Assembly: GCA_001822815.1 (NCBI GenBank)
Contig: MHSR01000025.1
Coordinates: forward strand, 1-50,230
DNA length: 50,230 bases
Origin: Candidatus Terrybacteria bacterium RIFCSPHIGHO2_01_FULL_43_35
Lineage (GTDB): Bacteria; Patescibacteriota; Minisyncoccia; Terrybacterales; GWB1-40-14
Direction: 5' to 3'
Made by a program: the position numbers and the translations under genes
The notes under the pieces: generated by a model
The model's input: only the letters and a program-made list of their open reading frames with translations
What the model was told of the DNA's origin: nothing
Database searches by the model: none
Shown: positions 44,858-49,637 of the stretch, in pieces
Numbering within the stretch: position 1 is the first letter of the stretch
Layout: each line of letters begins with the position of its first letter

Positions 44858-45214
44858 TTAAATTCGATAGTTAAATCTAAGCAGAGCCATAAGCGCAATA
44901 AACAGAAAAATCTGTAATATTATTGGGAACACGTAAAATATATAAAATAATAAACCTTCGCGATTCTTAATAAAGATGGCGATCGCGGTATTCAAAACTA
45001 AAAGTACCAGCCCCAAAAACGGCACTATATACAAATTCTGCTGAGTACCGAAAATATCACTGCCGCTCAAAATAGAATAGTGTATCACGTAGGGTATTTC
45101 GGAGGGCGGAAATCCTCGCCAGACAATAATCCAAAGCGTTAAATTTATCAACGCGCTACTTAAAACCGAAGTAAAGAAAAGCGTATTTTTAGATTTAAGC
45201 TTTGTCAACTTCAT
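44858..45214 (-). CDS. hypothetical three-TM membrane protein
   Basis: 118 aa, three hydrophobic segments; overlaps 3' end of the ATPase gene. Confidence 0.7.
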   Translation of the reverse strand: MKLTKLKSKNTLFFTSVLSSALINLTLWIIVWRGFPPSEIPYVIHYSILSGSDIFGTQQNLYIVPFLGLVLLVLNTAIAIFIKNREGLLFYIFYVFPIILQIFLFIALMALLRFNYRI

Positions 45215-47864
45215 AAATTTTTAGCTGCTTTCTTTCTTTTTCATCTAAAAGGCCCAGAATAATCTTGATCATTTCGAAAAGGAGTACACCGAAGGCGACG
45301 TAAATAGCCACGATACCTAAATCACCAAACGATAACGGCACTGTTTGCAGTATGGCTTGCAGGGGCGGTAGGTATATGGCGCTGAACATCAGGCCCAAAC
45401 CGGCCAAAATAGCAGTAGGCATCCACGGGTTTTCCCATGGCTTGCTTTTCCAAATGGGTACACTCAACTTACGTATCGATAATATATAGAAAAGCGAATC
45501 AATGCCCGAGGCGGCAAAAACTATCGTGCGCGCCTCATCCAAAGGAATACTACCCTGCATCCAAATAAAAATACCTAACAGCAAAACACTAGTGGCTATA
45601 CTAACACCGAGCATAAGAGCCAATGCTTGTAGGTTCACTATGGGCATGTCGCGTGGTGTAGGCGGACGGCTCATAACATCGTGCTCTCCTTTTTCAAAAG
45701 CCAAGGCAAAATTAGGCAAGCTGTCCTCAGCCAGATTTATCCATAAAATCTGCGCTGCCAGAAGCGGCAAAATGCCGGTGGGCACAACACCAAAAATGCT
45801 TAGTAGAAGATAACCACCAACAAGTATAATCTCTCCCACCGAATCTATAAAAAGAAAAAGTGTGGCCTTGCGTATGTTATCAAATATGACCCGGCCTTCT
45901 TTTATAGCTTCAACTATCGTTTCAAAATTACTATCCAGTAAAATAATATCCGAGGCTTCTTTCGCCACGTCTGCGGCTCCGCCTACGGCAATACCGATGT
46001 CAGCCTTCTTTAAGGCCGGAGCGTCGTTTATACCATCGCCAGTCATGGCTACGACTTCGCCTTGTGCCTGAAGGGCCGAGACGATTTTCAGCTTTTGATG
46101 AGGCAATACTCTTGCGTATAACCCGACATTACTTACTTGCTGGGCGAAAATTTCATCCGGCATACTTTCAAGTTCTGTGCCGCTTATAACCCTTTCGCCT
46201 TTTTCAAAAATACCTAATTTAGCCGCAACGTTTTGAGCGGTTAAAATATGGTCGCCGGTCAATATTGAAACTTTCACACCAGCTCTCTCCATATCAACTA
46301 ACGCGTCTTTGGTACTCAAACGTAGAGGGTCTTCAATAACCGCAAATCCTATCAAGATCAGCTCTTCAAGAGGGTTATTTATGTCCTCAAGATGCAGAGG
46401 CGCGCCATCAACCTTAAAGCGGCGATATCCCAAAGCAATAAGCCTGTAGCCCTGTCCGCTTGATTCGTCGTGCTTTTGCATCAAACGTTCGCGATCCGCA
46501 TCCAACATCGGGATGTTTAAATCTTTATGCATGAAAAAGCTTGCTGAAGGCAAAAGTATTTCAGCGGCGCCTTTGACGTAAATGGTCGTGCCTTCTTCTT
46601 CTATAACCAAAGCGGCCATATACCTATTAAGAGATTCAAAGGGCAGGATGTCTAAGGTACGATCCTTGCGCATGGAAATAATATCGCCGTGTCCAGCTTC
46701 GCGTGCTGCATGCAGTAAGGCTACATCGGTTGTTTCACCTAATATTTTTCCGCCGGGTTCAATTTGCGCTTCGTTGCAGAAAATGCCCGCTCTCAAAAGC
46801 ATATCGCGTGTCGGCTCGCCTCCTTCAACAATAAAATCGACGACTTGCATTTGCCCCTCGGTCAACGTACCTGTTTTATCTACGCAAAGCGCCGTGACCG
46901 AACCTAGGGTTTCTGCGGCTACTAATTTTCTTATTAGTGCCTTGCGTTCTAAAAGGCGTCTCATGCCAACTGTGAGAATAATAGTTACTGCAACAACCAA
47001 TTCGGCTGGTATGGCCGCAACGGCTATAGCAACCGCGGTAGCAAATATTTTAACAGGTGGAATGGCCGTAGATAATCCGATGATAAAAATTGCAGAAGCA
47101 ATGCCAATAATGCCGACTGTAACAAAATTAGCCAGGTGCTGTAAACGTTTTTGCAACGGCGTCAATCCTTCTTCAAGCTCTACCAAACTTTGTGCAATAC
47201 CACCCGCTTGCGTATTAATTCCCGTTGCAACAACAACGCTTAGACCATCGCCGCGGTTAACTATTGTTCCGGCATATACCATATTGGTACGGTCAGGAAC
47301 AGAAGCGCCTTCGGCTATAACTTCAGAACTCTTCTTTATGGGCAATGTTTCTCCTGTAAGCAAGGCTTCAGAAATCTCGAGCATGTCGGCTTCAATGACT
47401 CGAGCGTCGGCGAGCACCCTCTCACCTGCTCTCAATATCAGAATATCCCCTGGAACAACTTGATCTGCCGGAATCATTATCAACGAACCTTCACGTATTA
47501 TCGGAGCATCATACTTCACTAGCGCCTTCAAGGCCTCAATGGTGCGCTCAGACTTCAATTCCTGAAAAAATCCAAAAAATACGTTCACGAACAATGCTAT
47601 CAGAATCACCAAAGAATCAAGGGGGTCTTTAAGCCAAAGTGTTATACCTGCGGCAATCAAAAGTATGACAACAAATGGATTCTCAAACTGCTCCCACAAA
47701 AAACCCACAATGGTATGCCTAGCTCCTTCGGGTAAGGTATTGGGCCCGAATTCTTTGAGCCTTTTCGCAGCCTCTGTATTATCAATACCAGCGCGCTTTG
47801 TTTTAAGCTGCGTTAAAACCTCCCTTTCGGGCAAAATATGCCAAGGTTTAGCATATATAGACAT
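45195..47864 (-). CDS. type II-like cation-transporting P-type ATPase
   Basis: LLTGETLPIKKS, CVDKTGTLTEGQMQV, MTGDGINDAPALKKADIGIAVG. Confidence 0.94.
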   Translation of the reverse strand: MSIYAKPWHILPEREVLTQLKTKRAGIDNTEAAKRLKEFGPNTLPEGARHTIVGFLWEQFENPFVVILLIAAGITLWLKDPLDSLVILIALFVNVFFGFFQELKSERTIEALKALVKYDAPIIREGSLIMIPADQVVPGDILILRAGERVLADARVIEADMLEISEALLTGETLPIKKSSEVIAEGASVPDRTNMVYAGTIVNRGDGLSVVVATGINTQAGGIAQSLVELEEGLTPLQKRLQHLANFVTVGIIGIASAIFIIGLSTAIPPVKIFATAVAIAVAAIPAELVVAVTIILTVGMRRLLERKALIRKLVAAETLGSVTALCVDKTGTLTEGQMQVVDFIVEGGEPTRDMLLRAGIFCNEAQIEPGGKILGETTDVALLHAAREAGHGDIISMRKDRTLDILPFESLNRYMAALVIEEEGTTIYVKGAAEILLPSASFFMHKDLNIPMLDADRERLMQKHDESSGQGYRLIALGYRRFKVDGAPLHLEDINNPLEELILIGFAVIEDPLRLSTKDALVDMERAGVKVSILTGDHILTAQNVAAKLGIFEKGERVISGTELESMPDEIFAQQVSNVGLYARVLPHQKLKIVSALQAQGEVVAMTGDGINDAPALKKADIGIAVGGAADVAKEASDIILLDSNFETIVEAIKEGRVIFDNIRKATLFLFIDSVGEIILVGGYLLLSIFGVVPTGILPLLAAQILWINLAEDSLPNFALAFEKGEHDVMSRPPTPRDMPIVNLQALALMLGVSIATSVLLLGIFIWMQGSIPLDEARTIVFAASGIDSLFYILSIRKLSVPIWKSKPWENPWMPTAILAGLGLMFSAIYLPPLQAILQTVPLSFGDLGIVAIYVAFGVLLFEMIKIILGLLDEKERKQLKIYEVDKA

Positions 47865-47941: not shown

Positions 47942-47971
47942 TTTACTATTTGTGGATAACTACACTATTAT
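47942..47971 (+). promoter_or_regulatory. possible promoter for the tRNA-like gene
   Basis: TTTACT-N18-TATTAT. Confidence 0.35.
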
Positions 47972-47984
47972 GTGCGTGTTAATA

Positions 47985-48014
47985 TAAAAATGAAGCGAAA
48001 AAATCGCTTCATTT
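47985..48014 (-). terminator. intrinsic terminator, minus strand
   Basis: minus strand AAATGAAGCGA-TTTTT-TCGCTTCATTT followed by TTATATT. Confidence 0.75.
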
Positions 48015-48017
48015 CGC

Positions 48018-48102
48018 TGGCTCCTTGCTGACTTTGGAAGTCAGGCTAATCCTTAAAATTAGTTTCGTGGGGCGAATAGAGGTTCGAATCCTCGGGAGCC
48101 AA
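48018..48102 (+). tRNA. atypical class II tRNA-like gene, apparent anticodon UUA (ochre); alternative reading degenerate tRNA-Leu(UAA)
   Basis: TGGCTCCT/GGGAGCCA acceptor, CTGACT/AGTCAG D stem, CTAAT-CCTTAAA-ATTAG anticodon arm, TTCG-TGGGG-CGAA variable arm, GAGG-TTCGAAT-CCTC T arm, discriminator A; no encoded CCA. Confidence 0.75.
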
Positions 48103-48110
48103 TTACACTT

Positions 48111-48145
48111 AAGTCACCTAAAAACGGGTGGCTTTTGTGTTTTTC
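48111..48145 (+). terminator. intrinsic terminator directly after the tRNA-like gene
   Basis: AAGTCACC-taaaaacg-GGTGGCTT then TTTGTGTTTTT (one T-G pair). Confidence 0.75.
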
Positions 48146-48191
48146 CTATTTTGATTATAACACGAAAAAGGTTAACGGTTGTGGATAATTT

Positions 48192-49637
48192 TTACTGTAT
48201 TTGTATTAGCCCGCCCGTGGCGCGAACTCTAAACATCGCTTTCTGTGACATTTCGGCAATGGTGCGTGCGCCTATATAACTCATTGTGGAACGTAAAGCG
48301 CCGGCCATCTGATCTATCAAATCTCCCACCTCTCCTTTTGCGGGGATCATTAAATGGTCACCTTCAGGAGTAATTTGCGCCGCACTCTGACTTAATACAT
48401 CTTTGCCATCGGCTTGCTGCAGCGTAAGATTAGCCCCTAACGATGCCATGCCTCGGTAAAGCTTATATGAAAGACCATTCATGCCAACTATAGTTTTGCC
48501 AGGGGTTTCCTCGGTTCCAGCGAACATTGCGCCCATCATTACCGTGGAAGCGCCAGCAGCCAATGCTTTACCCAAATCACCCAATTCTCTGATGCCGCCA
48601 TCGGCAATAACCGGAATATCATATTCTTTCGCGGCTTTCGCACATTCATAAACGGTGGTCATCTGACCGCCGCCAACGCCAGTAACTCCACGCGTCCTAC
48701 AGGCATACCCCGGAGCTATGCCTACTCTTATACCGGCGGCACCTGCTTCAATTAACATTTTGGTTAAATCGGCAGTCATTACATTACCGCTTACTATATC
48801 AACATGCTTGAAAGTTTCGGCAAGATATTTAGTTGCGTCGGCGCATTTCTTCAAACCGCCATGCGCAATGTCTACCACCAACGCATCGGCTCCTGCTTCA
48901 ACTAATTTTTCAGCCCGCTTGATAAAATCTTCATCGCGTATGCCCACCGCGGCAGCAACTCTTGGCCTACCTTGTTTGTCGCGCGCGGCCAAAGGATAAC
49001 GCTCAACAAACTCTATATCTTTCTGTGTGATTAAACCGACCAGAACATCGTTTTCATCTACAAGCGGCAATTTCTCAATACGGTTGTCGTGCAAAATTTT
49101 CTTAGCCTCCCCCATAGTTGTACCCGGAGGCGCTGTGACAAGCTCGTGATGATTCATAACGTCTTTGAGCAATGTATTTCCTTCTTCGGACATCATATCG
49201 CGCGTGGTCGCAATCCCCACCGCTTTCCTATTTTCCATATTTTCAACTACGACAATCCCTCCCACGCCGTGTTCAGAAATAATATTACGCGCATCCTGAA
49301 CAGTATGCTTGGGGGTTAAGACAACCGGATGTTCAATAATGAAATAGCCAGAGCGTTTCACTCGTGAAACCTCTTGAACCTGATAGTCAATTGAGGTGAA
49401 GCGCGGCAAAACTCCTATAGCGCCTTTACGAGCCAAGGCAATGGCCATGGCTGAACCCGTAACCGTATCCATTGGCGCGCTCACAAACGGTTTGTTTATA
49501 ACTATTCGTTTTGAAAAATGGCTGCTTAAATTTATTTCCTTGCGGGAACCTATATCCGAAAATTGCTGCTCCAAATCAACGTCATTATATTCGTACGCCG
49601 GATCTTCCCTAAATTTTGGTCCATCTAATTTATTCAT
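48192..49637 (-). CDS. guaB: IMP dehydrogenase with CBS domains
   Basis: [22 protein letters not shown] region, [41 protein letters not shown]. Confidence 0.96.

Follow-up and report, generated by a model that had tools for sequence, protein, structure and literature searches.

The window analysed here, a 50,230-nucleotide stretch from Candidatus Terrybacteria bacterium RIFCSPHIGHO2_01_FULL_43_35 (contig C25 of the host draft), carries at positions 48018-48102 of the plus strand an 85-base gene that reads as a complete class II tRNA cloverleaf with an 8-bp acceptor stem, a 4-bp T stem (8/4) and a UUA (ochre) anticodon. The 5' strand of the acceptor stem (TGGCTCCT, 48018-48025) forms 8 bp with GGGAGCCA at 48094-48101, the last pair being T.G, and is followed by the two-base linker TG (U8 and G9, 48026-48027) and by a D arm (48028-48044) in which a 6-bp stem, CTGACT/AGTCAG, closes the 5-nt loop TTGGA; the minimum free energy (MFE) structure computed with RNAfold draws this arm with 7 bp and a 3-nt loop. 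The anticodon arm, CTAAT-CCTTAAA-ATTAG (48046-48062), holds TTA at 48053-48055, complementary to UAA as in an ochre suppressor, and C33 at 48052, and may be extended by G48045.T48063 as a possible sixth pair. Next come a long variable arm of 16 nt with a 4-bp stem (T-TTCG-TGGGG-CGAA-TA, 48063-48078), a T arm with the 4-bp stem GAGG/CCTC and the canonical loop TTCGAAT (48079-48093), and the 3' acceptor strand with the discriminator A73 (48094-48102), after which the DNA reads T, not C74, and CCA is not encoded. The canonical motifs are present (G18G19, the TTCGAAT loop and a 7-nt anticodon loop), all 27 of 27 pairs are intact, and G3:U70 is absent. The 8/4 reading depends on the T8.G66 wobble and the T1-A72 pair; a 7/5 folding would have to accommodate A49.G65 as a mismatch and a linker of 3 nt, and the 8/4 form with its normal 2-nt linker is better. 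Hence, the geometry, stems, loops, UUA anticodon and C33 claimed in the original prediction are all borne out by the sequence, ARAGORN and the fold.

ARAGORN reported a single tRNA in the window, exactly this gene, and called it tRNA-Stop(tta). The MFE structure is the same cloverleaf (-31.3 kcal/mol, z = -2.9), and 8 of 1000 dinucleotide shuffles were as stable. When 405 kb of host DNA was scanned for an 8-bp acceptor stem, a 4-bp T stem, a TTCRA loop, a D arm with GG and a 5-bp/7-nt anticodon arm, the scan returned this gene together with five ordinary tRNAs that also satisfy the 7/5 geometry, and 4.86 Mb of dinucleotide-shuffled host DNA gave no match, which makes a chance fold unlikely. 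The general tRNA model of Rfam (RF00005) misses the gene, which is absent from the 49 host matches and from the local scans of that model, and an Rfam scan of the 2-kb neighbourhood gave no matches. A scan of 106 bases returned the tRNA-Sec model RF01852, also used to align the gene, as the sole family matching over the full length, at 34.8 bits, short of the 47-bit threshold. Since RF01852 scores ordinary host tRNA-Ser at up to 45.6 bits, this score reflects architecture, not selenocysteine identity, and RF01852 as the closest Rfam match is what is expected for a class II tRNA with a long D stem.

A Sec-like role was among the possibilities first raised. Like bacterial tRNA-Sec, the gene has an 8-bp acceptor stem, a 6-bp D stem with a short loop and a long variable arm; its D arm (6 bp, 5 nt) matches that of RF01852, in agreement with the Sec- or allo-tRNA-like D arm originally described. 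In contrast to tRNA-Sec, however, its T stem has 4 bp, not 5, so that the branch measures 12 instead of 13 bp, the anticodon is UUA, not UCA, the RF01852 score stays below the cut-off, and no SelA (PF03841) was found in the host genome at E<=0.01. A tRNA-Sec, or a remnant of one, is thus nearly excluded.

An extended -10-like element, TGTTAATAT (47977-47985, plus strand), lies upstream of the tRNA and would be a plausible promoter element for it; it was read by eye and is absent from the consensus scan, which gave a weak TTTACT/TATTAT pair (47942-47971) in its place. Between this element and the tRNA, the fold of 47985-48150 contains a perfect hairpin (47988-48014), likewise absent from the consensus scan, which is probably the terminator of guaB, as T-rich sequence follows it on the minus strand; if guaB transcripts end there, their 3' part would run antisense to the tRNA. 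Just 3' of the tRNA, the terminator scan placed an intrinsic terminator at 48111-48134 (plus strand), so that the gene has its own terminator, as had been claimed. The two neighbours, guaB (IMP dehydrogenase, 48192-49637; Pfam IMPDH, 1.8e-107) and a cation-transporting P-type ATPase gene (45195-47864; Pfam E1-E2_ATPase and Cation_ATPase_C/N), lie on the minus strand, as do the other main open reading frames between roughly 22.8 kb and the end of the window, which agrees with its description as a lone plus-strand gene in a minus-strand block. Pfam analysis of the neighbours revealed no mobile-element gene directly beside the tRNA.

At the orthologous locus of a same-genus genome (G001), gene order is conserved and guaB is 82% identical, and the interval from the P-type ATPase gene to guaB holds no tRNA. 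The gene lies well inside its contig, and this relative shares the contig's synteny, so that a chimeric assembly is disfavoured. In place of the tRNA, G001 carries a TTGACA/TATAAT-like promoter, then untranslated sequence and a hairpin resembling a terminator (L093, 875-1498), an element that is possibly a small RNA.

A DNA search of 55 genomes, comprising the host and its relatives, returned beyond the gene itself nothing but short matches to part of it, for the most part in the T arm. Two further models, both resting on the one natural sequence, were used for structure-based searches: R1, a single-sequence covariance model of the gene (286, 380 and 16 genomes), and R2, built from the gene and 12 invented sequences of the same structure for use as a probe only (384 genomes). 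These genome sets overlap and together comprise several hundred distinct Patescibacteria genomes; a first-look filter was applied and the best loci were read, and besides the gene the top-ranked loci examined are canonical tRNAs, mostly Leu. BLASTN against phages and plasmids found no relative, and four pattern scans of viral contigs yielded five loci, none of which (0/5) is a tRNA by ARAGORN. One locus (L118, 282-354; IMGVR_UViG_3300030101_004066) repeats the D hairpin, GCTGACTTTGGAAGTCAG, without a mismatch over all 18 bases, in a weak tRNA-like context (R1, 21.5 bits); with its anticodon and T arms broken and no ARAGORN call, it was rejected as a relative, and the match is probably due to chance. 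A route through guaB relatives in genome contigs led to one distant, uninformative locus. The ochre tRNA is a singleton in the collections searched, with no sign of long-term selection. A singleton in a draft of 25 contigs that is apparently metagenome-assembled (827 kb, 98% complete) invites the suspicion of a chance fold or an assembly artefact; however, the empty scan of shuffled DNA, the synteny with the same-genus genome and the gene's own terminator render this very unlikely.

The host has 49 other tRNA genes, which cover every amino acid. Among those for Leu, Leu-UAA and Leu-CAA each occur twice and Leu-CAG, Leu-GAG and Leu-UAG once; since a normal tRNA-Leu(UAA) is thus present in two copies and no amino acid is left uncovered, the ochre tRNA gene is supernumerary. 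It also departs from the host norm, as C74 is encoded by all 49 others, even where CCA is incomplete. U33 occurs in 48 of these 49; the exception is one tRNA-Glu(UUC) gene, whose loop CCUUCAA differs from CCUUAAA by one base, and hence C33 is unusual but tolerated in this host. A73 is found in all seven Leu and both Tyr tRNAs, and G73 in all four Ser tRNAs. By nearest-neighbour score the ochre tRNA is the most isolated in the genome: it reaches 15.5, whereas every other host tRNA scores at least 18.5. Five host proteins match PF00587 (class II synthetase), a count close to what the enzymes for Thr, Ser, Pro, Gly and His would account for.

Stop codon usage was examined in 405 kb of the 827-kb host genome (36 + 147 + 93 predicted genes). 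Of these 276 genes, 178 (64%) stop with UAA, 55 with UAG and 43 with UGA. Another in-frame stop lies within the next three codons in 34/178, 13/55 and 11/43 cases, respectively, and there are no extra back-up stops behind UAA in this gene set. Eight regions within the same 405 kb where neighbouring genes meet in frame at a UAA were translated, and no UAA-split gene was found: the junctions link distinct, apparently complete proteins, and pairs such as MraY/MurI, YbeY/FtsA and DnaK..DnaJ read, from their translations, as ordinary neighbours. The tRNA-Gly(UCA) of the patescibacterial phage RSA-ATP1 likewise has a stop-complementary anticodon in a patescibacterial system, but it serves genome-wide UGA reassignment (PMC13059738), whereas UAA is the main stop of the present host and shows no sign of reassignment. 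The view that a global reassignment of UAA is unlikely, put forward in the original prediction, is upheld by the stop usage and the lack of any read-through signature in the half of the genome examined. As neither UAA-split genes nor an excess of back-up stops was seen there, suppression, if it occurs, can only be weak, conditional or confined to particular genes.

In its architecture the gene recalls the allo-tRNAs, reportedly described in 8/4 and 9/3 forms by Mukai and colleagues in 2017. Allo-tRNAs have 8/4 or 9/3 branches, a long D stem, a long variable arm and many different anticodons, ochre being known from those with a 9/3 branch, and in E. coli a number of them suppress efficiently (PMC7609411, PMC7590224); they have been reported from Clostridia, Proteobacteria and Acidobacteria and are read as Ser (or Ala) acceptors (PMC7609411). 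The gene shares with them the 12-bp acceptor branch, here 8/4 with a single T.G wobble at the junction, the long Sec-like D stem with its short loop, the long variable arm and a non-cognate anticodon, ochre being represented within the family. It differs in combining the ochre anticodon with 8/4 instead of 9/3, in its short 4-bp variable stem and C33, and perhaps in its identity elements, since the long variable arm is accompanied by A73, unlike the G73 of host Ser tRNAs, and not by G3:U70. We liken the gene to allo-tRNAs by architecture, supposing that it may work as they do, and claim no family membership.

We regard the locus as a genuine, supernumerary 8/4 tRNA gene of allo-tRNA architecture that is probably transcribed. 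By analogy with allo-tRNAs, its product may well suppress ochre codons weakly or under certain conditions, with LeuRS or SerRS as the probable charging enzyme; we hold this reading tentatively, as it presupposes transcription, processing, charging and decoding. Judging from the allo-tRNA studies, the 12-bp branch should still suit RNase P, the CCA-adding enzyme and EF-Tu. The charging enzyme would have to be one that pays no heed to the anticodon, the likeliest candidates being LeuRS, in view of A73 and the long variable arm, and SerRS, in view of the variable arm, and the UUA anticodon would then compete with release factors at UAA, with low-level, gene-specific or conditional read-through as the outcome. 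In E. coli, whether a tRNA accepts Leu or Ser depends on the discriminator base, and given that A73 is common to host Leu and Tyr tRNAs whereas host Ser tRNAs have G73, Leu charging is favoured over Ser. C33 and the missing C74 count against suppression, as they could mean poor translation or processing. These two departures from the host norm would sit more easily with a structured, processed tRNA-like RNA that acts outside translation, in regulation, as a non-ribosomal amino-acid donor or as part of a selfish element, and so would the dominance of UAA as stop and the isolation of the gene among host tRNAs. Such an RNA could be likened to the allo-tRNA-UAU group and to irregular forms from metatranscriptomes, and some allo-tRNA-like RNAs are inactive in translation and linked to transposons or toxin-antitoxin systems (PMC7609411). 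However, the T loop is still canonical, G18G19 and an anticodon loop of 7 nt have been retained, no mobile-element gene is directly adjacent and there is no known partner; we consider a non-translational role somewhat unlikely, yet a serious rival.

A possible origin is suggested by the T arm, TAGAGGTTCGARTCCTC, which equals that of host tRNA-Leu(CAG) minus U65, one loop substitution apart. When aligned to the 8/4 models, canonical Leu tRNAs use T(-1)-A73 as the eighth pair and carry one inserted base, and a single U65 deletion with recruitment of T(-1) as the first pair would convert 7/5 into 8/4, a hypothetical route that the sequences suggest. The gene could accordingly be a duplicated Leu-like class II tRNA remodelled in this way, recent, possibly dying and functionless. 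It shares A73 and the long variable arm with canonical bacterial tRNA-Leu, its anticodon loop differs at two positions from the CTTAAAA of Leu-UAA, and Leu is the closest isotype overall, albeit in a comparison set that the search itself had enriched in Leu. When the T arm is left out, however, no single isotype stands out, Leu being no closer than Tyr, Val or Met. The D arm does not resemble that of host Leu, and the fully paired stems run contrary to decay. The gene further differs from canonical tRNA-Leu in its 8/4 form with a 6-bp D stem and U1-A72, in place of a 7/5 form recognised by RF00005, and the 7-nt loop CCUUAAA reads UUA, not the UAA of tRNA-Leu(UAA). We judge the remodelled, functionless copy unlikely. 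The degenerate tRNA-Leu(UAA) offered in the original prediction is weakened by the intact stems, the two good Leu-UAA genes and a likeness confined mainly to the T arm, although a remodelled class II tRNA is a serious rival.

Were the gene a natural ochre suppressor, this would be unexpected in a standard-code bacterium, UAA being its commonest stop. A well-formed 8/4 ochre tRNA in a reduced genome would show that non-7/5 tRNAs also arise in the candidate phyla radiation, possibly by so simple a route as the loss of one T-stem base with recruitment of T-1, and would provide genetic-code work with a new scaffold. We rather doubt that a standard-code, mostly-UAA patescibacterium has a dedicated, functional 8/4 tRNA that decodes ochre and serves regulated UAA read-through or a non-ribosomal task, which would extend allo-tRNAs to this radiation; as a singleton known from sequence, the ochre tRNA remains a lead.

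Other host tRNA genes also show peculiarities. The only two CAU tRNAs appear to be the initiator and elongator Met species, a lysidine-type Ile-CAU not being evident among the host tRNAs, and locus L009 holds two tRNA-Ile(UAU) genes, apparent readers of AUA. Within the same locus, a dense array of nine tRNAs (C24:27089-28333; L009, 6190-7434) mostly repeats isotypes present elsewhere and looks foreign; many of its genes encode CCA, unlike most other host tRNAs, and one of them is a tRNA-Leu(UAG) with a variable loop of just 5 nt.
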